The translations under genes and the position numbers were made by a program. A DNA stretch of 20,159 nt. Origin: a virus. The stretch lies in the IMG/VR virus record IMGVR_UViG_3300028812_000221, positions 1-20,159 of that record; one strand, written 5' to 3'. This document shows, one piece after another, positions 3,264-20,089 of this stretch (its first letter is position 1; each line of letters begins with the position of its first letter). The notes under the pieces are model-generated. The model did no database searches. It saw only the letters and a program-made list of their open reading frames with translations, and was not told where the DNA came from.

Positions 3264-3292
3264 TTGACAGGACGCGGCGGCTGTGTTATGAT
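3264..3292 (+). promoter_or_regulatory. SigA-type promoter ahead of the 3341 gene
   Basis: TTGACA (3264-3269), a 17-base spacer and TATGAT (3287-3292) form a near-consensus housekeeping promoter. It starts ten bases after the stop codon of the barrel protein, and transcription should begin near 3299, about 42 bases before ATG 3341. Confidence 0.9.
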
Positions 3293-5640: not shown

Positions 5641-6102
5641 ATGATCAGAAAGCTCACCGGTCTGCTACTTGCAGGCACCTTGATGACCGCCGCAGTCGGG
5701 TTCATGCTGGCACCCGCCAGCGCCGACTCGGCCCGCACGATCCAGGACCGCGAGCGCTGGGGCCGTTACGGCTCGCTCGACGGAAAGCCTGGCCTCAACC
5801 AACATGAAGTGCGCCTGACGATCCGCTGGGCGGCCGAGCGCTGGGACGTACCGGTTGCTACCGCCCTCGCCATCGCCGAGCGCGAGTCTGGTTTCAACGC
5901 TCGAGCCGTAAACAGCTCGTCCGGCGCGTGCGGGGTGTATCAAGCGTACGGACCCGATCCGCAACGGACCTTCCTCGAACGGGTGCGGAAGTTCAACCGC
6001 GAGGTCCCCAACGGCAACGCCGGGCCCTCTTGTTTCAACGGTCGATCCAACGTGATCGTGCACGTGCGAATCATGGGGCGGTCCCTGAGCCCCTGGGATT
6101 GA
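5641..6102 (+). CDS. Secreted lysozyme/lytic-transglycosylase-like protein
   Basis: 153 residues with GGAGG seven bases before ATG 5641. Residues 1-28 are a signal peptide (basic start, hydrophobic core, APASA cleavage site before Asp29). Residues 60-110 contain the SLT-type pattern: a helix, then AIAERESGFNARAVN with probable catalytic Glu82, then SGACGVYQ in the position of the conserved GLMQ-type strand. Cys97 and a Cys near residue 131 may form a disulfide. The domain is short for an SLT lysozyme. Likely it cleaves peptidoglycan outside the membrane, either at lysis or during infection. The stop codon overlaps the -35 box of the next promoter. Confidence 0.8.
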   Translation: MIRKLTGLLLAGTLMTAAVGFMLAPASADSARTIQDRERWGRYGSLDGKPGLNQHEVRLTIRWAAERWDVPVATALAIAERESGFNARAVNSSSGACGVYQAYGPDPQRTFLERVRKFNREVPNGNAGPSCFNGRSNVIVHVRIMGRSLSPWD

Positions 6103-6229: not shown

Positions 6230-7093
6230 ATGCCAGTACAGTTGGTGAAGGTCGCGGACGCCCGCGACACCACCACAGTTTTGTACTACGGCGACGGAGG
6301 ATCTGGCAAGACCAGCTCCCTCGCTTCGATGGCCAATCTCGGACGAGTCCTGTACGTGGACGCCGAGGCCGGTATCAAGCGCAAGCCCCTGGAAGGACTC
6401 GGCGTCGATGTCGATAACGTCGAGATGCTCCGCATCCAGGGCCTGGACTTCCCCACGCTTGAGGAGGTCTTCGAGATGGTCAAGGCGGACCTGGACGACG
6501 ACGCCGACGCCTGGACGGGCGTGGTGTGGGACTCCGGGACCGAGATCTACCAAGCCCTGCTCCAAGAATCCGTCACCACGAGGGTGAAGCGATTCGCGGC
6601 GCGGGGTGAGTCCAACGCCAAGTCGGACCCGTTCTTCATCGACCGGGACGACTGGGGCCGGGCCAACGGCGAATTCCGCCAGCTCATCCGGCGGTTCCGT
6701 GACCTACCCTGCCACTTCGGTACGGCGTTCTTGCCCCGGCGCGACCAGGACGACAACGGGAAGGTCCACGTTGGTCCGTCCATCTCGCCGGGACTCCAAG
6801 CCGACCTCATCGGCTGGCACGATATCGTCTGCCACACGACCTACGACGACGAGTCGGGCCTCTACATGGGTCGGTTCAAGCCCCACGGGGTGTACCAAGT
6901 CAAGGACCGCTACAGCGCCCTGCCGAACGTGATGGTGGATCCCACCTTCGAGCGGATCATCGGCTACATCTCCGGTGAGCTGGTCGAGGACAACGATCCG
7001 CGTCAGGACGCTCTCAACGGAGCGGACGACGACACGCCGTCACCCACCCCGATCCGCGCGGCGAAGCCCGCCGCAAAGGCCAGTCGCGGCTAG
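6230..7093 (+). CDS. Sak4-like RecA-fold recombination ATPase (AAA_24 type)
   Basis: 287 residues, with AGGAGGAGG just before ATG 6230. Walker A is GDGGSGKT at residues 21-28; VLYVDAEAG follows at about 40-48, and a Walker B-like VVWDSGTE lies near residue 100. The C-terminus is a disordered Ala/Lys/Pro tail. This is the layout of phage nucleotide-binding proteins of the Sak4/AAA_24 group, RecA/Rad51-related ATPases thought to work with a phage single-strand binding protein in annealing-type recombination. The next gene, DUF669-like, is the usual partner, which supports the call. It acts on phage DNA in the cytoplasm. Confidence 0.85.
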   Translation: MPVQLVKVADARDTTTVLYYGDGGSGKTSSLASMANLGRVLYVDAEAGIKRKPLEGLGVDVDNVEMLRIQGLDFPTLEEVFEMVKADLDDDADAWTGVVWDSGTEIYQALLQESVTTRVKRFAARGESNAKSDPFFIDRDDWGRANGEFRQLIRRFRDLPCHFGTAFLPRRDQDDNGKVHVGPSISPGLQADLIGWHDIVCHTTYDDESGLYMGRFKPHGVYQVKDRYSALPNVMVDPTFERIIGYISGELVEDNDPRQDALNGADDDTPSPTPIRAAKPAAKASRG

Positions 7094-7558: not shown

Positions 7559-7608
7559 GGGGATCCCGGGACTGCCGCCCACGGGGGGAGGTGGCTCCCG
7601 GGGTCCCC
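7559..7608 (+). promoter_or_regulatory. Large hairpin before the PrimPol gene
   Basis: GGGGATCCCGGGA (7559-7571) pairs with TCCCGGGGTCCCC (7596-7608) with one G-T pair, and the interior can add GCC/GGC and CCAC/GTGG pairs. There is no T-run after it, so it is more likely an attenuator, an mRNA-stability element or a processing site than an intrinsic terminator. Confidence 0.55.
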
Positions 7609-7632
7609 ACCCCTTCGCGATGGAGGCCCGCG

Positions 7633-9564
7633 TTGGACGAAGCTCTGGCAGGCGCACTAGAGGTCGCCAAGCTAGGAGCCCGAGTATTCCCGGTCTGGTC
7701 CCCGCGCGACGGCGCGTGCTCATGTAAGGCAGGGGGAGCATGCGAGTCGCCGGGTAAGCACCCGATCGAGGCGGGCTGGCAAAAGACCGCCACAACTTCA
7801 CCCGCCCGCATCAAGCGCTGGTACGAGACAACATTCCCCGGATGCAACTTCGGCTACCGTACCGATGACGTCGTGATCGTGGACGTCGATCCGCGCAATG
7901 GCGGCGAGCTAGGCGACCTGATCCAGGTTCTTCCCGGCACCCAATGGTTGGTTTCAACCGGGGGTGGCGGGTGGCACCTGGGATTCGCTCCGAACGGCCA
8001 CCAACCCAACGCCAAGATCGGGCCCGGCGTGGACCTCAAGGGTGAGGGCGGATTCGTCGTCGCGCCCGGCTCCCGTCATGCCTCTGGCATGAGCTACGCG
8101 TGGGATCCCGAGGCCCCGGAGGGCGCTCTCCCGATGTGGCCGGGTATCGATACCGCCCGGGGTGCCGTCGTGGTCCCCGGTGTCACGGGAGGCCCAGGAG
8201 AGGCCCAGGACGGGGCCCCCCGGACGGGCTGGATAGGCACCGTGTGGGGCGGCGTGGGAGAGGGCCAGCGCAACGACACGTGCGCCCGGCTGGCGGGCTA
8301 CCTCATTTCACATGGCCTCAGCACCGACATCGTTCTAACAATGATGCTCGACTGGGGCGAACGGTGTGACCCTCCGATGGCCGAGTACGAGATTCGGCGC
8401 ACGGTCCAATCGGTGGACAAGAAAGAACGCAGTAAAGCGCTCGAGCCGCAAACTGCCGCCGACCCGGACGCCGAGCGCGAGGCCAAGATCGCCGCCCGAA
8501 TGATCAGCATCGAGGTGGACACGGAGGCCCGACGCCGGATCAAGGCCGGTACGTTCGAAGAGCCGCCACCTGGTTTCCTCGTCGGAGACTTCATCGCCCA
8601 GCCCGACGATCCCGAGCCCTGGGCCGTCAAAGGACTCCTGCAGGCCGGAGGCAACGCCCTATTCGCCGCCCAGTACAAGGCGGGCAAGACCACCACGATG
8701 CTCAACCTCATGAAGAGCTTGGCCGACGGGACCCCGTTCCTGGGTCAAATCGAGGCCACCCTCAGTCCCGGACGACGCGTCGCATTCTTCAATTACGAGA
8801 TGACGGCAGATCAGTTCCGGGCCTGGGTCAGGGCCATCGGCATCCTCAACGTTGGAGCCTGCGCGGTACTCAATCTGCGCGGGGCCTCCCTCCATCTTGA
8901 GGAGCCGATGGCCCGGGCCTGGATCACCGAATGGCTCCGCGAGTGGAAGATCGAGCATTGGATCATCGACCCCTTCGCCCGTGCCTACGCTGGCGACGAG
9001 AATAGCAACACCGAGGCCAGCTATTTCACCGGAGTCCTGGACGACATCAAGGCCGACGCCGGTGTGGAGACAGCCTACCTCGCGGCCCACTTCGGCCGCC
9101 AATCCTTCGAGGAGGGAACGGAACATGTGCGGGGTGCTACGCGTCTGGACGATTGGGCCGACAGCCGTTGGATGCTTGTCCGAGGACGGGACTCCGATGA
9201 TCGTTATTTTTCCGCCCAGGGACGAGACGTGGATTTTGAAGAATCCCGCCTACAGTTCCACTACGAGACTCGCACCCTCTCGGTGGTCGGTGGATCCCGA
9301 CGAACCGCCAACCACGAACGAACCATGACGGTAGTGGAAAACCATCTGGCGTCCCTAACATCCCGATTCAGCGGCAACGAGCTACGGTCGCATCTGACCG
9401 GCAAGGCCCTGCGAGCGGAGATCGACGGCCGAGACGCGGAGATCGATGCAAGCCTACGTCAGCTCGTGGCGGCGGGCCACTTGAAGGTCGTCACCGGCCC
9501 CCACGGGGAGCGGTGGCATTATCCCTCGGATCATCCCGAGACGGCCCAGGAGTCGATGATCTAA
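7633..9564 (+). CDS. PrimPol-helicase fusion (primase/polymerase plus RecA-like ATPase)
   Basis: 643 residues from TTG 7633, chosen because GGAGG lies six bases upstream and the N-terminus then matches the family (ALEVAKLGARVFPVW). Residues 1-190 are a bifunctional primase/polymerase domain: C-x-C...PGKHP near 29-43, DVD metal site at 84-86, STGGGGWH with His115, and D134LK. Residues of about 335-560 are a RecA-like ATPase with a Walker A-like KAGKTT (Lys352) and Walker B HWIIDPFARAY (Asp446), as in RepA-like helicases. The last 90 residues look like a winged helix. It probably primes and unwinds phage DNA for the downstream polymerase. It is the normal length for such fusions. Confidence 0.87.
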   Translation: MDEALAGALEVAKLGARVFPVWSPRDGACSCKAGGACESPGKHPIEAGWQKTATTSPARIKRWYETTFPGCNFGYRTDDVVIVDVDPRNGGELGDLIQVLPGTQWLVSTGGGGWHLGFAPNGHQPNAKIGPGVDLKGEGGFVVAPGSRHASGMSYAWDPEAPEGALPMWPGIDTARGAVVVPGVTGGPGEAQDGAPRTGWIGTVWGGVGEGQRNDTCARLAGYLISHGLSTDIVLTMMLDWGERCDPPMAEYEIRRTVQSVDKKERSKALEPQTAADPDAEREAKIAARMISIEVDTEARRRIKAGTFEEPPPGFLVGDFIAQPDDPEPWAVKGLLQAGGNALFAAQYKAGKTTTMLNLMKSLADGTPFLGQIEATLSPGRRVAFFNYEMTADQFRAWVRAIGILNVGACAVLNLRGASLHLEEPMARAWITEWLREWKIEHWIIDPFARAYAGDENSNTEASYFTGVLDDIKADAGVETAYLAAHFGRQSFEEGTEHVRGATRLDDWADSRWMLVRGRDSDDRYFSAQGRDVDFEESRLQFHYETRTLSVVGGSRRTANHERTMTVVENHLASLTSRFSGNELRSHLTGKALRAEIDGRDAEIDASLRQLVAAGHLKVVTGPHGERWHYPSDHPETAQESMI

Positions 9565-9760
9565 TGCACAATTGTCAGACACAGTATTGCGCCGGCGGGG
9601 ATTACTCTCTCCTAATATCGTCCGATATCGGCCGGGGGTCGGCCGCCTATCCTACGCCCGCAGGATCGGCCCGACGACTCCTACGGAGTCGGGCCGAGCG
9701 GACGACCTATCCCCCTCTGTCAACCCCTCCGGGCGGGGCCGATATTATGGAGACGCAACT
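9565..9760 (+). promoter_or_regulatory. Hairpin-rich leader upstream of the DNA polymerase gene
   Basis: This 196-base gap holds several inverted repeats: CCGATATCGG (9622-9631); GGCCG-GGGGT-CGGCC (9630-9644); a bulged hairpin CGGCCC-GAC-GACTCC-TAC-GGAGTC-GGGCCG (9667-9696); and outer arms CTAATATCG (about 9612) and CGATATTAT (about 9739). TATTAT at 9743-9748 could be a -10 box, but no good -35 box lies at the right distance. A frame that extends the polymerase through this stretch encodes low-complexity residues and is not believed. Confidence 0.5.
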
Positions 9761-11575
9761 ATGACACGCGACGCCCGGGCCGGGCTGGCATTGCCCTGGG
9801 ACACATCAGGTCTGCTCGTGGCCGTGGACACCGAAACCACGGGCCTACACCCGGACCCCCCTGAAAACGCGCGGGTGTCGGTGGTGTCCCTTGCCTGGCG
9901 CGACTGGTCCGAACACTTCATCCGTCCGGCACGAGCCATGGCGCTGCCCTTCGAGTTCGGCCGGGGTACGGGGGGCCAGGCGACACTGGACCTAGAGCCC
10001 GACCCGAATCTGGGCCCCGAGGAGTGGCGGGTCTTGATGGAATGGCTGGCCCGCCAACGGCTGGTGTTTCAGGGGGGATCGTTCGACCTCATGATGCTGC
10101 ACGCCGGTACAGCTCGATTCGAGGGCTCGAGCCTTGAGGACGCGTGGTACTGGGACACGATCATCGGCAGTCGCGAGCTGGATCCGGCCGAGTCGGCCGA
10201 GTTGGGCGACATCGAGCGCAGACTAAACATCCTGGGGACGCAGGAGCGGGCCGACTGGCTCAACAGCAAGAAGCTGCGGGCGAGGGTGAACCTCATGGAG
10301 TGGGCGCGGGCGGCCGAGTACGCCACGGTAGACGCGGTGGTGACGCTGCACGCGGCAGAGCACCAGCTGGCCCGCTTCGGTCAGGGAGAGGGCTCCCGCG
10401 CCTCGATGGACCGGCTCCTGGCGCAGGGGCGCGAGCTGTTGCGGATCGAGCGCCGGGGCGTGGGGTACGACAGGCAGCGCTCCCTGGAAATCGCCGAGCA
10501 GATGAAGAAGGTCGAATCGTCGATGCGCGTGGGCCTGCCGTTCCGAGCGACGCCCGCCGGGGCCAAGCGCTACTTTTTCACAGAGCGGGGGTACGATCCG
10601 GCCGAGCGTACGGCGACGGGTCAGCCGAGGCTAGACGATCAAGAGGTGTCGCGTCTTGTGGCGTTGGGAGCGCCGTTCGCCCGCGAGTACCAGGAGCTGC
10701 GCTCGATCGAGGTCGCCCGGACCAAGTGGTACGAGAGCTATGCCGAGCATTGCGGGTGGGACGGGCGACTGCGCACGAAGTTCAGCCAGGCCAAGGTCAT
10801 CAGCGGACGGCTTAGCTCCACCCGCGTCAACCTACAGGCGATCCCGCACGACTACCAGCTCAAAGAGATCACGGAGCGGGGCTGGGAAACGCCGCGCCAG
10901 CTGTTCCGGGCCAGGGACGGAGCGCGGTTGTGGGAGCTGGATCTGAGCCAGGCGGAGCTGCGCGTGGCCGCCGTCGAGGCCGGGTGCACCTCGATGCTTG
11001 AACTGATCCGCGAGGGCGCAGACATCCACGGATCGGTCACGTCCGACCTATTCAACATCCAGCCCGAGCACCCCGACTGGGGCGAGAAGCGTCAGATCGG
11101 CAAGCGCGCGGACTTCGCATTCATCTTCGGCGTCGGGGCCGACACGTTCCAATTCGATCTCGCCAAGCTCACCGGCATCTGGCTGCCGATCGGTGAGTGC
11201 CAGTCGATCGTGGCCAAGTGGCGCAAGCTCTTCCCCGAGTACGGGCGGGCGATCAAGCGGTACATGGACCTCGCGGACCGGCGACAATGGATCCGGCTCG
11301 TGAACGGGCGGGTGCGGCACTTCGCCTCCTGGGAGGACCAGCACAAGGCGTTCAACCAGTACGTGCAGGGCTCGCTGGCGGAGCTGATGACCGACTGGTT
11401 GATCGAGGTCGGCAAACGGTGGCCCGGGCTGGTCCTGCTCACGATCCACGACTCGCTCGTGCTCGAAACGGCCGACGAGGCGCTGGTGCAAGAGGTCCGT
11501 CAACTGGGGGAGGAGCTGGGCACGAAGATGTTCAAGGTCCCGATGGTCGTAGACATGAAGGTGTGGGGGGAATGA
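9761..11575 (+). CDS. dpoZ: Family A DNA polymerase with 3'-5' exonuclease, candidate DpoZ
   Basis: 604 residues; ATG 9761 follows GGAGA at seven bases. The exonuclease domain has DTE (Asp23, Glu25), Asp109 in GGSFDLMM and Tyr187-x3-Asp191. Polymerase motif A is ELDLSQAELR (Asp394), motif B is Arg444-x3-Lys448-x7-Phe456-Gly457, with Phe where Pol I has Tyr766, and motif C is HDS at 563-565 rather than the common HDE. It lacks a 5' nuclease domain, as usual for phages. Proximity to the PurZ homologue suggests a DpoZ enzyme that prefers dZTP over dATP; that preference is inference and cannot be read from the motifs. The stop overlaps ATG 11572 of the resolvase. Confidence 0.88.
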   Translation: MTRDARAGLALPWDTSGLLVAVDTETTGLHPDPPENARVSVVSLAWRDWSEHFIRPARAMALPFEFGRGTGGQATLDLEPDPNLGPEEWRVLMEWLARQRLVFQGGSFDLMMLHAGTARFEGSSLEDAWYWDTIIGSRELDPAESAELGDIERRLNILGTQERADWLNSKKLRARVNLMEWARAAEYATVDAVVTLHAAEHQLARFGQGEGSRASMDRLLAQGRELLRIERRGVGYDRQRSLEIAEQMKKVESSMRVGLPFRATPAGAKRYFFTERGYDPAERTATGQPRLDDQEVSRLVALGAPFAREYQELRSIEVARTKWYESYAEHCGWDGRLRTKFSQAKVISGRLSSTRVNLQAIPHDYQLKEITERGWETPRQLFRARDGARLWELDLSQAELRVAAVEAGCTSMLELIREGADIHGSVTSDLFNIQPEHPDWGEKRQIGKRADFAFIFGVGADTFQFDLAKLTGIWLPIGECQSIVAKWRKLFPEYGRAIKRYMDLADRRQWIRLVNGRVRHFASWEDQHKAFNQYVQGSLAELMTDWLIEVGKRWPGLVLLTIHDSLVLETADEALVQEVRQLGEELGTKMFKVPMVVDMKVWGE

Positions 11576-12105
11576 CGAAGCCACGGGGAGACTCGGCCAA
11601 GCGCCGGAGCGGCGGTGCGTTCAACCTCCGACTCGACGTCCCCGGGGATCTAGTGCGGGAGGTGCTCGCGATCGACCCGGGAGCGGCCCGCACCAGCAAG
11701 ACGAACGGGTACTCGCATTGGATCCGGGACAACGGCACGGATCAGTTCGTTCAAGTCGCAGTCGGGTCAACCGGCGTTCTCGAAGCGATCATGATGTTGA
11801 GCGAGTGGGCGAGGCGCAACCGAGGTCAGGGAGTGGCGGTAGTTGAGGAGTTCAGGCTCTATCCGCACCTGCTGGCGGATCAAGGTTTGACGCAGGTAGC
11901 CACCGCGCAGGTGATCGGCGCAATGCAATGGGAGCTGCACCGGCTCGATTGGCCCGTGCCGATGATCATGCAGGGAGCGCACATCAAGAAAGCTGCCCAA
12001 CGGGCGATGGACGAGGCGGCGATCGAGGCCCAAGGGACGAACCAGCACGCCCGAGACGCGGAGATGCACGGATGGTACTGGATCCTCAAAAAGTGGCGCC
12101 ATTGA
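11572..12105 (+). CDS. RuvC-like Holliday junction resolvase
   Basis: 177 residues, ATG 11572 overlapping the polymerase stop. The RNase H-like core is visible: VLAIDPG with Asp35, then GYSHW, acidic VAVVEEFRLYP with Glu92/Glu93, QVIGAMQW, and the final NQHARDAEMHG with Asp162 in the place of the last metal ligand. This is the arrangement of the RuvC-like endonucleases common in actinophages, which resolve branched replication and recombination DNA before packaging. The first 20 residues are basic and may contact DNA. The TGA stop lies inside the -35 box of the next promoter. Confidence 0.82.
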   Translation: MTKPRGDSAKRRSGGAFNLRLDVPGDLVREVLAIDPGAARTSKTNGYSHWIRDNGTDQFVQVAVGSTGVLEAIMMLSEWARRNRGQGVAVVEEFRLYPHLLADQGLTQVATAQVIGAMQWELHRLDWPVPMIMQGAHIKKAAQRAMDEAAIEAQGTNQHARDAEMHGWYWILKKWRH

Positions 12106-12131
12106 CAGGCCACTAACCGGCGTGCTAGGAT
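12102..12131 (+). promoter_or_regulatory. Promoter of the PurZ operon
   Basis: TTGACA (12102-12107), an 18-base spacer and TAGGAT (12126-12131). The stop codon of the resolvase gene lies within the -35 box. It should drive genes 12168 through at least 14998. Confidence 0.85.
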
Positions 12132-12167
12132 GCGCTCACACGATGGACGACGGAGGAGGTGAGACAG

Positions 12168-12596
12168 ATGACGGGATTCGCGATCATCGACGACGCTTGG
12201 GAGCTGGACGACCTCATGGAGGTCAACAGCATCCGGTATTCGGCGAAGCTCAGTGACGGCAGCACGCTCGCAGCCTTCGACGGGAACATTCCCGTAGGGG
12301 GAAGTGACGTCCGGATCTTCACCGAGTACGAGGCACCGGCCGCGTTCTGGCCGTGGCGTGCGTTCCCGAAGCGGGCGATCGGGACGGAGGAGGACGTGGA
12401 ACACCTCACGTTCAGCCTCATGTCGATCGACCTGCTCGACACGCTGGCGGCGGCCGACCCGGAAGGGAAGGCGGCCGTGGTCGTAGTGAACGAGGACATG
12501 CTCCTCGTGGAGGCCCGCGACTGGACGCCGCCTATGGCAACGTGGACGGCGACGGTCAAAGAATTCCGGGACGCTCGGCAGCCGGTCCCGGCGTAG
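12168..12596 (+). CDS. Unknown acidic protein, first gene of the PurZ operon
   Basis: 142 residues from ATG 12168, eight bases after GGAGGAGG; GTG 12159 is in frame but overlaps the ribosome site. The sequence alternates short hydrophobic strands and turns (FAIIDDAWELDDLMEV, LAAFDGNIPVGGSDVRIF, AAVVVVNEDMLLVEARDW), which suggests a compact alpha/beta or beta fold, and it is acidic overall. No catalytic motif is recognised. As the first gene of the transcript containing the Z-DNA enzymes, it may take part in nucleotide metabolism or its control, but this rests on position only. Confidence 0.7.
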   Translation: MTGFAIIDDAWELDDLMEVNSIRYSAKLSDGSTLAAFDGNIPVGGSDVRIFTEYEAPAAFWPWRAFPKRAIGTEEDVEHLTFSLMSIDLLDTLAAADPEGKAAVVVVNEDMLLVEARDWTPPMATWTATVKEFRDARQPVPA

Positions 12597-12628
12597 GGGT
12601 AGATCCGCAAGACTACCCTGCGGGAGCG

Positions 12629-12650
12629 CCGGGGGGCGACGGCCCCCCGG
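12629..12650 (+). promoter_or_regulatory. Strong GC hairpin inside the PurZ operon
   Basis: CCGGGGGGC (12629-12637), loop GACG and GCCCCCCGG (12642-12650) give a perfect 9-bp stem 33 bases after the stop of the upstream gene. No T-run follows, so partial termination, RNA processing or mRNA protection are all possible. Confidence 0.55.
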
Positions 12651-12677
12651 TCAACCCGTCGAACGAGAGGATGGAAG

Positions 12678-12905
12678 ATGAGCGATCTGATGGACGATCG
12701 ACGCAAGGTCCTGGACGACGGGTACAAGGCCATCCGGGCTTTGGAGACGTTGGGACTGGACACGGAGGCTCTACACAAGGTGATCGAGCTGGGCTGGGAG
12801 ATGGAGTCGATCCTGCAATTCCGCAATCTGGAAGACACGCTGGATCGGATCGAGCGTCTCCGACAGGACCGGGCCGAGGCCTTAAGGGAGGCAGCCCGTG
12901 GGTAA
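12678..12905 (+). CDS. Small helical protein upstream of PurZ
   Basis: 75 residues from ATG 12678, with GAGAGGATGGAAG upstream, to TAA 12903-12905, overlapping the PurZ start by eight bases. It is almost entirely charged heptad-like helix (RRKVLDDGYKAIRALETLG, FRNLEDTLDRIERLRQDRAEALREA), consistent with a small coiled-coil or helical-bundle protein. No family is recognised. Overlap with PurZ means the two are translationally coupled, so it could be a partner or regulator of that enzyme. Confidence 0.7.
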   Translation: MSDLMDDRRKVLDDGYKAIRALETLGLDTEALHKVIELGWEMESILQFRNLEDTLDRIERLRQDRAEALREAARG

Positions 12906-13968
12906 GCTGCAAGTGATCGTGGGGGGGCAGTTCGGGTCCGAGGCTAAGGGCGCAGTCGCGGCCCATCTCGCCCGGACCGAGGAAAAGCACGTGATGGCGA
13001 TTCGCATCGGGGGACCGAACGCGGGCCACACGGCGTACGACGAGCAGGGCCAGCGCCACGCGCTGAGGCAGCTGCCGGTTGCGGCGGTCGTGCCGCACCG
13101 CTCCATCTCCGAGCCCATCCTGGCGATCGGGGCGGGGTCTGAGGTGGACATGGACGTGCTGGCGGCCGAGATTCGCGAGGTCCAAGCGATCCGGGATCCG
13201 TGGCTCGTGATCGACAGCCAGGCCACCATCTTGAACAACGCCCACGCCGAGCAGGAGGAACACGACCGGCTGCGAGATCGGATTGGCTCGACCAGCAAGG
13301 GAATCGGGGCCGCACGCGCCGCCCGCCTCATGCGAACCGCTCACCTGTTCGATCGAGACACCGAGGTAGGGGCCCCGCCCGAGTACAAGATGGCGGATGG
13401 TGTGAACGTCGCGCACTACGCGATCCAGCACATGCTGGCGGGCGGCACGGTTCAGATCGAGGGGACGCAGGGGTTCGGGCTGGGGCTGCACGCCGGGTAC
13501 TACCCGTTTTGCACCAGCGGGGACTGCCGGGCGGTGGACTTCCTGGCCCAGGCGGGGCTTAGCCCGTGGCACCCGGCCGTCACCGAGTTCGAAGTGTGGA
13601 TCGTGTACCGGCCGTTCCCGATTCGGGTGGCAGGCAACAGCGGGCCTCTGCTGGGCGAAACGACGTGGGCCGCGCTGGGACTGCCCGAGGAGCGGACCAC
13701 GGTCACGAACAAGGTTCGCCGGGTGGGGGCGTGGGACGAGAAGCTGGCGCAGCAGGCCATGATTGCGAACGGTGGCACGACTCCCGCCGTGCATCTGGCT
13801 CTGACCATGTTCGATCACGTCGCACCCGACGTCATCGGTACGACCGACGAGCGCGACCTCTTGCCCCAAGACTTCATGACGCTCCGCCAGTACGAACGGC
13901 CGCTGGGGCGGGCATTTGAGTTGATCGGCACCGGGCCACAGACCATGATCGATCGGAGGGGAGAATGA
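12898..13968 (+). CDS. purZ: PurZ-type adenylosuccinate synthetase homologue (Z-DNA precursor synthesis)
   Basis: 356 residues from GTG 12898, six bases after GGGAGG; PurA enzymes have about 430. The nucleotide loop GGQFGSEAKG (residues 9-18) has Ser14 where PurA has its catalytic Asp, and Ala16 where PurA has Gly. GGPNAGHT with His44, GSTSKGIG (130-137), the EGTQG...YYPFCTS block (188-207) and NKVRRVGAW (271-279) match the rest of the PurA/PurZ fold. Loss of that Asp together with the short length are the described marks of phage PurZ, which joins dGMP and aspartate to form the precursor of 2-aminoadenine; host PurB and kinases finish dZTP. Substrate use here is inferred. Confidence 0.88.
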   Translation: MGKLQVIVGGQFGSEAKGAVAAHLARTEEKHVMAIRIGGPNAGHTAYDEQGQRHALRQLPVAAVVPHRSISEPILAIGAGSEVDMDVLAAEIREVQAIRDPWLVIDSQATILNNAHAEQEEHDRLRDRIGSTSKGIGAARAARLMRTAHLFDRDTEVGAPPEYKMADGVNVAHYAIQHMLAGGTVQIEGTQGFGLGLHAGYYPFCTSGDCRAVDFLAQAGLSPWHPAVTEFEVWIVYRPFPIRVAGNSGPLLGETTWAALGLPEERTTVTNKVRRVGAWDEKLAQQAMIANGGTTPAVHLALTMFDHVAPDVIGTTDERDLLPQDFMTLRQYERPLGRAFELIGTGPQTMIDRRGE

Positions 13969-14351
13969 TTCCGGAGGGATACGCGTCCCCGGAGGACGTG
14001 ATGTCGGCGTTGCGGCAGTCGGTGGATCGGGAGAACGAGCGCCCGTCGCTGCAGCTGGCCGCGTGGTGGGACGAGACAGCGGACGACGACCTCAAGGCCG
14101 TGATGCCGAAGGTGGACGAGTACACGGCCCTCGACCTTGAGATCATGGGCGACGTGCTCGAACGATGGGGCATCGCCGCCAAGGGCGGGGGCCAAGAGGC
14201 CGCGTGCATGTGGTATCTCCTGGGCAAAGTCGCCCGCGCGGTGGCGGCCTATCGCGAAGGGCGCGAGCCGTCCGAAGACACGCTGCACGACATCACTGTG
14301 TACTCGATGATGGCGCGTCGGATCCGGGAGGTGGGACGGTGGCCAAGCTGA
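13965..14351 (+). CDS. Conserved small helical phage protein, possibly MazG-like
   Basis: 128 residues from ATG 13965, coupled by ATGA to the PurZ stop. It is helical throughout. The C-terminal block WYLLGKVARAVAAYREGREPSEDTLHD is written here only in part; it continues ITVYSMMARRI and resembles actinophage proteins of unknown role, with a Gly-Lys-x-Ala-Arg helix and a His-Asp before the last helix. The acidic positions and helix spacing recall all-alpha NTP pyrophosphatases (MazG/DUF1599-like), but I cannot establish homology. Its place between PurZ and the MazG-like fusion makes a role in dNTP handling worth testing. It overlaps the next gene by 13 bases. Confidence 0.75.
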   Translation: MIPEGYASPEDVMSALRQSVDRENERPSLQLAAWWDETADDDLKAVMPKVDEYTALDLEIMGDVLERWGIAAKGGGQEAACMWYLLGKVARAVAAYREGREPSEDTLHDITVYSMMARRIREVGRWPS

Positions 14352-14998
14352 TCTATCTCGCCAGCCCGATCGATAAGGCCCCGGAAGGGTTCGCCGTGCG
14401 CAGGCTCGACATCAAGACGAGACTACGCAGTATGGGCTACTCGGTGTTCGATCCGTCACAGGCGTTCATCTCGGACACCGGCACAGAGCAGATCCAGGCG
14501 GTAAACGAGGTCGCCATCCGCAACTCGGACGGCGTGTTCGTATTCTACCCCCCGGAGATGGAGTCGGTCGGGGTCCCGCGCGAGATGCGGTTCGCCTACA
14601 GCTTGGGCGTCCCGTACGTAGTGTGCAAGGACGAGAACGACTTCGCCCGCTGCATCGAGATTCTGGAAAAGGAGATGACCAAGGAGGAAGAGCCAGACGA
14701 GCGTTGGATGGATTGGACGTTGGCCGTGTCGGCAGAGATGACCCGTGCTCAGGAAAAGTTCCCTGACTCGGACAGGAACACGTATGGCCACTGGTACGGG
14801 ATTTACATGGAAGAAGTGGTGGAGGTGGCGCAGGCATGGAACGAGTTTTGGGCAGGAAGGCACAGCACACTAGGCGGGCTGTTGACCGAAATCGAGCAGG
14901 TGGGAGCAATGGCGGGACGCCTGTGGATGAAGCTGCACGAGGATGGCCCCTCCGAAGGGGAATCTTCGACTACGACGCCGGAGGATGGTGGTTCTTGA
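14339..14998 (+). CDS. Fusion of nucleoside 2-deoxyribosyltransferase-like and MazG-like (MazZ candidate) domains
   Basis: 219 residues from GTG 14339, seven bases after GGGAGG. Residues 1-108 fit the nucleoside 2-deoxyribosyltransferase-like fold: KLIYLASPI, GYSVFDPS, a TEQIQAVNEVAIRNSDGVFVF block and a REMRFAYSLGVP helix. Residues of about 120-200 form a MazG-like helical domain with MEEVVEVAQAW (Glu158, Glu159, Glu162) and LLTEIEQVG (Glu184, Glu186). The Asp expected at the end of the second motif appears to be Gln187. In known Z-DNA phages a MazG-like enzyme (MazZ) turns dGTP into dGMP, the PurZ substrate, so this domain is the candidate. The N-terminal domain may hydrolyse or exchange deoxynucleotides. 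Confidence 0.8.
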   Translation: MAKLIYLASPIDKAPEGFAVRRLDIKTRLRSMGYSVFDPSQAFISDTGTEQIQAVNEVAIRNSDGVFVFYPPEMESVGVPREMRFAYSLGVPYVVCKDENDFARCIEILEKEMTKEEEPDERWMDWTLAVSAEMTRAQEKFPDSDRNTYGHWYGIYMEEVVEVAQAWNEFWAGRHSTLGGLLTEIEQVGAMAGRLWMKLHEDGPSEGESSTTTPEDGGS

Positions 14999-15952: not shown

Positions 15953-16146
15953 GTTCACCCCTAGCCTGTCGTCGCTGCGGGTGGAAACGTCGACACGCCA
16001 AAGGTCTTTGCATGGCGTGTTACCAATGGGAGCGTCGGCACGGGGAGCCCCGACCTTACGAGGTCATCGCCGCTGCGGGCCAGCGAGCGATCGACGAGGC
16101 CAACGAGCTTGAAATAGCGAAGTACCGGTATCGTCTTTCGGGTTGA
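15949..16146 (+). CDS. Small four-cysteine zinc-binding protein
   Basis: 65 residues from TTG 15949 (TTGA overlap with the upstream stop) to TGA 16144-16146. Cys7-x2-Cys10-x10-Cys21-x2-Cys24 in a basic setting (CRRCGWKRRHAKGLCMACYQW) makes one complete zinc site, a pattern frequent in small actinophage proteins. The C-terminal half is helical. A DNA-binding or adaptor role is likely but undefined. Its stop codon touches the first GAGGCTAATC repeat, and it is the last convincing rightward gene. Confidence 0.7.
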   Translation: MSSPLACRRCGWKRRHAKGLCMACYQWERRHGEPRPYEVIAAAGQRAIDEANELEIAKYRYRLSG

Positions 16147-16240
16147 GGCTAATCGCTCAAGCTCGCGTCTTGCGCATATCGAGGCTAATCGCCCACGCCC
16201 GCGTCTCGAATATGAGGCTAATCAAACGGGCTCGCGTCTT
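16145..16240 (+). repeat. Three tandem GAGGCTAATC repeat units
   Basis: GAGGCTAATC begins at 16145, 16181 and 16214. Each copy is followed after a short variable stretch by a second conserved part, CYCGCGTCTY, making units of about 27 bases spaced 36 and 33 apart. Two further direct copies lie at 19296 and 19322, and a partial inverted copy (TAGCCTC) near 17724. They lie mainly outside genes and may be binding sites. Confidence 0.8.
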
Positions 16241-17030: not shown

Positions 17031-17059
17031 ATCCTACCACACCCGTAGCGCCGTGTCAA
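17031..17059 (-). promoter_or_regulatory. Leftward SigA-type promoter
   Basis: On the minus strand TTGACA (17054-17059), a 17-base spacer and TAGGAT (17031-17036). The spacer ends in GGGTGTGG, giving a TGN extended -10 shared with several other leftward promoters. It drives the three-gene unit from 17024. Confidence 0.9.
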
Positions 17060-17882: not shown

Positions 17883-17911
17883 ATCATACCACATCCGTAG
17901 CGCCGTGTCAA
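17883..17911 (-). promoter_or_regulatory. Leftward promoter with no clear gene downstream
   Basis: On the minus strand TTGACA (17906-17911), a 17-base spacer ending GGATGTGG, and TATGAT (17883-17888): the best leftward match to consensus in the window. The spacer nearly matches that of the 17031 promoter (CGGCGCTACGG). Transcription from about 17876 enters a region with no good ORF. Confidence 0.85.
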
Positions 17912-18822: not shown

Positions 18823-18851
18823 ATCCTACCACACCCGACGCGTCCTGTCAA
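18823..18851 (-). promoter_or_regulatory. Leftward promoter of the 18779-18088 operon
   Basis: On the minus strand TTGACA (18846-18851), a 17-base spacer ending GGGTGTGG and TAGGAT (18823-18828). The leader carries ATTTAG, GTCGG and a GGCCCC-ACC-GGGGCC hairpin, closely resembling the leader of the 20014 gene. Confidence 0.9.
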
Positions 18852-19271: not shown

Positions 19272-19597
19272 GTCGTGCCTCCTTGCCTCGAATGCGAGGC
19301 TAATCGCTCAAGCGCCGATGCGAGGCTAATCGAACGCCCTCGCGTCTTGTCTGCAACGCCGGGGCTGGCGTCGTCTCGGGCGGCCCGGCCCCCGGGCGGC
19401 GTATCACGTCAGCGCAATTGCGCCGATATAATAACACCCCGGGAACCGGGTTCGCCGGTTGCGTCCAAATGAAACCTCCTCGGGGGCCCGGTCGGGCGGG
19501 CCCGCGCGCGGCCCCGGCCGCCGCCCGGGGCTCGCGCCCTCGCGGGCGGGCCGGGTGGCCAGGGGCCGCGCGCGCGCCCTCCCGGCGCGCGTTGCGT
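19272..19597. other. Non-coding composite element plus extremely GC-rich stretch
   Basis: Between two leftward genes. It contains GAGGCTAATC repeats (19296 and 19322, 26 bases apart), the palindrome GCGCAATTGCGC (about 19414), a TATAATAAC box (about 19427), and the hairpin AACCGG-GTTCG-CCGGTT (19444-19460). Then comes about 115 bases of nearly pure G and C (19476-19590) with many possible hairpins. On the minus strand GAGGAGG is followed by ATT, not by a usual start codon. The element order matches the region 16145-16430. Confidence 0.75.
19296..19349 (+). repeat. Two further GAGGCTAATC repeat units
   Basis: GAGGCTAATCGCTCAAGC at 19296-19313 is identical over 18 bases to the start of the first unit at 16145. 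The unit at 19322-19349 has both conserved parts, GAGGCTAATCG and CTCGCGTCTTG. They occupy the 5' leader of the leftward gene at 18909-19271. Confidence 0.8.
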
Positions 19598-20060: not shown

Positions 20061-20089
20061 ATCTTACCACACCCGCCGCGCGCTGTCAA
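20061..20089 (-). promoter_or_regulatory. Leftward promoter of the 20014 gene
   Basis: On the minus strand TTGACA (20084-20089), a 17-base spacer ending GGGTGTGG and TAAGAT (20061-20066). The leader starts ATTTAGGGGTCGG and forms a GGGGCC/GGCCCC hairpin like that of the 18779 operon. Confidence 0.9.

Follow-up and report, generated by a model that had tools for sequence, protein, structure and literature searches.

Gene content of the locus

The window analysed here is the whole of the IMG/VR virus record IMGVR_UViG_3300028812_000221, a stretch of 20,159 nt that is probably a fragment of a phage genome and that carries what is likely a set of PurZ0-type genes for the substitution of 2-aminoadenine (Z) for adenine (A) in DNA. 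The central block comprises, in order, genes for a DpoZ-like family A DNA polymerase, a conserved phage protein, the PurA-fold enzyme PurZ0, a 128-residue protein (HP128), and a fusion of a DmtZ domain with a MazG-like domain. A Z-genome system had been proposed here in a preliminary description made from the letters alone; the genes that it named are real open frames, all intact, and the conserved 128-residue gene between purZ and the fusion was not mentioned in it. The PurZ0 loci and the window were searched with hidden Markov models of the cluster genes. Megablast of the entire window against phages gave no match, and single-protein scans of IMG/VR found no close relatives; the related records used below are L050, L080 and L024, with lengths of 16.8 kb, 50.1 kb and 48.3 kb, respectively. 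The sequence itself gives the identities of the genes, their clades and catalytic residues, the fusion, and the absence of dUTPase and DatZ genes from the record.

A GTP-type PurZ0

The purZ0 gene (12898..13968, plus strand) encodes a PurA-fold protein of 356 residues, the frame and the Ser14 of which were verified as first described. Its product scores 325 bits against the NCBIfam PurZ model NF038379, above the cut-off of 300. Ser14 replaces the catalytic Asp of PurA; the corresponding Asp13 column holds Asp in Escherichia coli PurA and Ser in all 61 PurZ0 rows. Asp306, the guanine-binding residue of the GTP site, is kept in the window and is likewise Asp in all 61 PurZ0 rows, whereas this column is Asn or Gln in the three PurZ of phiVC8, S-2L and SH-Ab 15497. 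In a maximum-likelihood tree, rebuilt without two rows that had absurdly long branches in the first version, the window protein lies within the PurZ0 clade (support 99/99). A second clade (100/99) unites the PurZ of phiVC8, S-2L and SH-Ab, and neither clade includes the standard PurA rows. The window protein shares 46-51% identity with the PurZ0 enzymes of Gordonia, Streptomyces, Arthrobacter and Microbacterium phages, 31-33% with PurZ of phiVC8 and S-2L, and 26% with E. coli PurA.

Because it belongs to the PurZ0 clade and retains the Asp306 that ATP-type PurZ has lost, the 12898-13968 protein is, by tree and residues, a GTP-type PurZ0 and not an ATP-type PurZ. The earlier identification of a Z-genome PurZ homologue is thereby supported, with its type corrected to PurZ0, and membership of PurA is rejected by the tree and by Ser14. 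A structure of this type has been solved for the enzyme of Gordonia phage Archimedes (PDB 7VF6).

PurA-like enzymes with Ser for the catalytic Asp were also observed on plasmids of rhizobia and in cellular genomes, one of them archaeal and the others bacterial (L116, L117, L186-L192, L194 and L198; the motif check did not cover L193). They share about 35% identity with PurZ0, and mostly no other Z genes were found in reach. In L188 (Mesorhizobium qingshengii), a weak DatZ-like match (E 0.00075) lies on the opposite strand within the same 13-kb locus as the Ser-type gene.

A DpoZ-like polymerase

The polymerase gene (9761..11575, plus strand, with an alternative start upstream at 9572) encodes a family A enzyme (PF00476, 3e-41) with a 3'-5' exonuclease domain, the motifs of which appear intact, in the same block as purZ0, as had been noted. 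In a careful tree it falls inside the clade of PurZ0-phage polymerases (100/100), where it groups with those of L080 and L050 (100/100) and is then joined by that of L024 (100/99). Among the matches listed, identity is 33-37% to PurZ0 phages and falls to about 24% in other phages. Helix O carries Phe456 where PolA has Tyr, and the change from Tyr to Phe is the one common to both DpoZ subfamilies (PMC8599892); Tyr is retained in 17 of the 41 Z-phage polymerases aligned, so Phe is not a strict marker. The initial label of candidate DpoZ can be kept: the window polymerase is a Wayne-like candidate, with a predicted preference for dZTP over dATP.

A DmtZ-MazG-like fusion

The fusion gene (14339..14998, plus strand) has a GTG start, overlaps the stop of the upstream gene and encodes 219 residues. 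It had been read as a MazG-like fusion, and its two-part structure and MazG-like second half were borne out; the true coding sequence is that given here, and the first half (14339..14677) is a nucleoside deoxyribosyltransferase (NDT) domain of the DmtZ type, so that the MazG-like part is confined to the second half (14690..14950). The first half alone matches PF05014 with 29.3 bits (cut-off 28.8). Y6, D12, P39, G78 and E82 do not vary across 36 aligned DmtZ domains, and N56 is more than 90% conserved; Y6, D12, P39, N56 and E82 correspond to Y6, D12, P57, N77 and E103 of Ghobes DmtZ, which have been mutated and tested (PMC12884076). The fold of this half, as modelled with AlphaFold2, is that of NDT, DNPH1 and MilB structures (Foldseek 2.7e-5 to NDT; VIA Z 14.1 and root-mean-square deviation 2.2 over 114 residues against MilB). 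DmtZ enzymes, which have the NDT fold, hydrolyse dAMP and transfer its deoxyribose phosphate to the Z base (PMC12884076, 2026). The first half is a DmtZ with all catalytic residues kept, and the same hydrolysis and transfer activity would be predicted for it.

The second half is helical, with an EExxE...ExxQ pattern (E158, E159 and E162, then E184 and Q187), and matches phrog_2831 (3e-7). It appears MazG-like by pattern and is not a proven MazG. The same domain recurs in L050 and L080; in the L024 fusion, the same position is occupied by a C-terminal MazG pyrophosphatase (phrog_3301, 1e-32), so that the four fusion carriers have phrog_2831-type domains in three cases and a phrog_3301-type domain in one.

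Absence of DutZ and of other Z-pathway genes

PurZ0 phages use DutZ, an enzyme of the dUTPase fold, to convert dATP and dGTP to the monophosphates; dutZ has been reported in 98 of 98 PurZ0 genomes and dmtZ in 85 of 98, with dmtZ fused to dutZ in 77 (PMC12884076). The usual PurZ0 locus consists of purZ, HP128 and in some cases purB, and then either dutZ alone or dmtZ and dutZ, fused or in succession. We counted 79 PurZ0 loci for which 2.5 kb or more of downstream sequence was present, a redundant set in which phage references and IMG/VR copies both enter. Among these, dutZ is missing only from the window, L080 and L024; it is also missing from L050, which has a shorter flank. A PF00692 search of whole records found no dUTPase in any of these four, and one in each of the controls L015 and L069. 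DatZ (YfbR-like, PF12917) was not found in the four records either, as the preliminary description had stated for the window, while the same search detects it in phiVC8, S-2L and SH-Ab 15497. An adenylosuccinate lyase gene was not found in the four records, and therefore the host enzyme would serve, as in Z phages without a lyase of their own.

In the polymerase tree the four fusion carriers group together as a single clade (100/99), and a further IMG/VR scan for this clade found no additional members. The weak inner branches of the PurZ tree leave the unity of the fusion carriers undecided; it is the polymerase tree that settles the question. Read most simply, these observations mean that the fusion-carrier lineage lost DutZ and that MazG-type domains filled its place, either twice or once with a later swap.

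HP128, a conserved partner of PurZ0

HP128 (13965..14351, plus strand; 128 residues) lies directly after purZ. Relatives are present in 31 phage records, directly 3' of purZ in all those looked up, and per-genus counts of HP128 equal those of PurZ in Microbacterium, Gordonia, Streptomyces and Curtobacterium phages. In the 79 loci, HP128 is present in 68 and DUF5664 in 9, both in none and neither in 2; the DUF5664-bearing loci are those of Arthrobacter phages of one group. In the two loci with neither (L067 and L078), a small unrelated open reading frame stands between purZ and the DmtZ-DutZ fusion.

HP128 is predicted to be a confident helical domain (predicted local distance difference test score 92.5). 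It weakly resembles DUF1599 and Nmad1: outside its own family, the named viral structures that match best are proteins of DUF6378, Nmad1 and DUF1599, which share a helical fold with it, but each of these matches has an E value of 0.27 or worse and is not significant alone. No Pfam match was obtained for any of seven HP128 members, and Foldseek against solved structures gave no significant fold match. Homology to DUF5664 or MazG was sought with HHalign, which found nothing, and iMazG/MazG chains, which came up together with numerous unrelated helical entries at Z of about 5 or lower, were not used as evidence. HP128 is thus a conserved uncharacterised partner of PurZ0, and our best guess is that it acts on the nucleotide pool. 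As a short, confidently folded target beside purZ in nearly all PurZ0 phages, it may complete the pathway.

Proposed pathway and alternative explanations

Phages with Z-DNA swap one whole base of the genome, and the exclusion of A is the hard part. We consider it likely that the window carries a PurZ0-type Z gene set in which the fusion protein clears A from the pool, with the MazG-like domain standing in for DutZ. In the proposed pathway, PurZ0 would join aspartate to dGMP, with GTP as the probable phosphate donor; a lyase, from the host or encoded elsewhere, and host kinases would then yield dZTP, which the DpoZ-like polymerase would incorporate into DNA. The MazG-like domain would cut dATP to dAMP, and dGTP to the dGMP that feeds PurZ0, and the DmtZ domain would cut dAMP to adenine or pass its deoxyribose phosphate on to Z as the free base. 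Every enzyme activity in the window phage, together with Z in its virion DNA, is what we infer from these gene assignments.

Several results weigh against this pathway. The ExxD motif of MazG is ExxQ, with Gln for Asp, in all three domains of the window type, and the sole match of the window domain is to phrog_2831, a family of unknown function. PF03819 (MazG) does not match the C-terminal domain of the window protein, an absence of little weight since PF03819 also misses S-2L MazZ, and a profile built from the three MazG-like domains found no convincing solved structure in the PDB; its matches to two designed proteins (E 0.007) and to AF_0060 (2p06; E 0.23) were too weak and were left unused. 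In addition, the polymerase scores 295.7 bits against the curated DpoZ model NF038381 and misses the cut-off of 350, which may be too strict for it, its close relatives being outside the cultured set. Finally, the window is a fragment, and a dutZ gene could sit outside it.

The motif change is the starting point of one alternative, which we regard as unlikely, namely that the MazG-like part is not a working pyrophosphohydrolase and serves perhaps in dimerisation or regulation, with the dATP and dGTP step carried out by HP128 or by a gene outside the fragment. HP128 sits where Arthrobacter phages carry DUF5664, the two never co-occur (68 versus 9 of the 79 loci), the DUF5664 of Wayne is an active hydrolase of dATP and dGTP (PMC12884076), and HP128 weakly resembles nucleotide-modification-associated domains. 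However, HP128 also stands beside DutZ in most loci and would therefore be no simple replacement of it, and in the fusion of L024 the position of the window domain is taken by what is clearly a MazG pyrophosphatase.

The fragmentary state of the record would also allow dutZ to lie beyond the 20-kb fragment, the MazG-like domain then being an addition and not a replacement; this is improbable, as in every other locus whose flank is long enough dutZ is no more than a few kb from purZ, and the long records of the same clade, L080 and L024, are without a dUTPase. It is still harder to uphold the version of the preliminary description, in which a MazZ-like enzyme supplies dGMP and the polymerase alone keeps A out. 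No DatZ was found and a candidate DpoZ is present, as that version expects, but the fusion has a complete DmtZ active site and the DmtZ of relatives has been shown to remove dAMP. The exclusion of A need not rest on the polymerase alone, because the fusion probably encodes removal of dATP and dAMP. Least probable of all is that the phage makes no Z-DNA, the cluster being decayed or its PurZ-like enzyme serving another purpose, as the Ser-type enzymes without other Z genes nearby on rhizobial plasmids and in cellular genomes might suggest, since the entire neighbourhood including the polymerase matches PurZ0 phages and all frames are intact.

Comparison with known Z systems

The window shares PurZ0, the DpoZ-like polymerase, DmtZ and the gene order with the actinophage PurZ0 clusters of Gordonia phages Ghobes and Archimedes, Streptomyces phage Galactica and Arthrobacter phage Wayne (PMC12884076), and HP128 directly after purZ with all but the Wayne type. 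It differs from them in having no DutZ, in the fusion of DmtZ to a MazG-like domain and in the lack of a lyase gene within the fragment. The DmtZ-DutZ fusions of Wayne and Galactica occupy the same operon place and likewise have DmtZ first and a domain converting triphosphates to monophosphates second, a function that is predicted for the window domain; the second domain is of the dUTPase fold (PF00692) in Wayne and Galactica, whereas it is MazG-like in the window. The same chemistry would be expected from the PurZ/DatZ/MazZ set of S-2L, phiVC8 and SH-Ab 15497, and S-2L and SH-Ab 15497 employ a MazG-type enzyme to hydrolyse dGTP. Unlike that set, the window has a PurZ of another clade with a different GTP site and no DatZ, and no relationship between its MazG-like domain and S-2L MazZ could be detected.

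The Z gene cluster is thus of a known kind; what is new, within the reach of our searches, is the arrangement of DmtZ with MazG in the absence of DutZ, together with the near-universal partner HP128. A DmtZ-MazG fusion was not named in the literature searched, a search outside which most subscription papers lay. It is quite possible, although we put it forward tentatively, that a PurZ0 lineage lost DutZ and fused DmtZ, perhaps twice, to unrelated MazG-type pyrophosphohydrolases, that the step from dATP to adenine is a modular slot for any enzyme that converts triphosphates to monophosphates, and that HP128 is a further, hitherto unrecognised enzyme or subunit of PurZ0-type Z-DNA synthesis. If triphosphate hydrolases as unrelated as DutZ and two MazG types can each partner DmtZ, then DmtZ would be the fixed core of this PurZ0 branch and its partner would be exchangeable.

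Other genes and repeated elements in the window

Between the polymerase gene and purZ0 lies the gene for the conserved phage protein (11572..12105, plus strand; phrog_5202, 6e-10, unknown function). Its product looks RuvC-like by eye, with an LAIDPG motif, and open reading frames bearing LAIDPG or VAVDPG stand at the equivalent place in L080, L050 and L024. It is possibly an accessory protein, outside the Z pathway as far as is known. Upstream, the replication block includes a primase-polymerase fused to an AAA ATPase (7591..9564, plus strand; PF09250 8e-26, PF13481 7e-25 and PF08708), and farther upstream lie a Sak4-like recombinase gene (6230..7093, plus strand; phrog_124, 6e-31) and a gene for a small protein with an SLT transglycosylase domain (5641-6102; PF01464, 8e-6).

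A sigma-70-like promoter, TTGACA-N17-TAKGAT with a conserved spacer, occurs in five copies, versus 0.57 expected by chance. The copies are located at 3264-3292 on the plus strand and at 17031-17059, 17883-17911, 18823-18851 and 20061-20089 on the minus strand, and they mostly precede leftward genes. In addition, a 28-nt repeat (GAGGCTAATCG...CGCGTCTT) is found around leftward genes, in three copies at 16144-16240 and two at 19295-19348, and these copies are possibly protein-binding sites.

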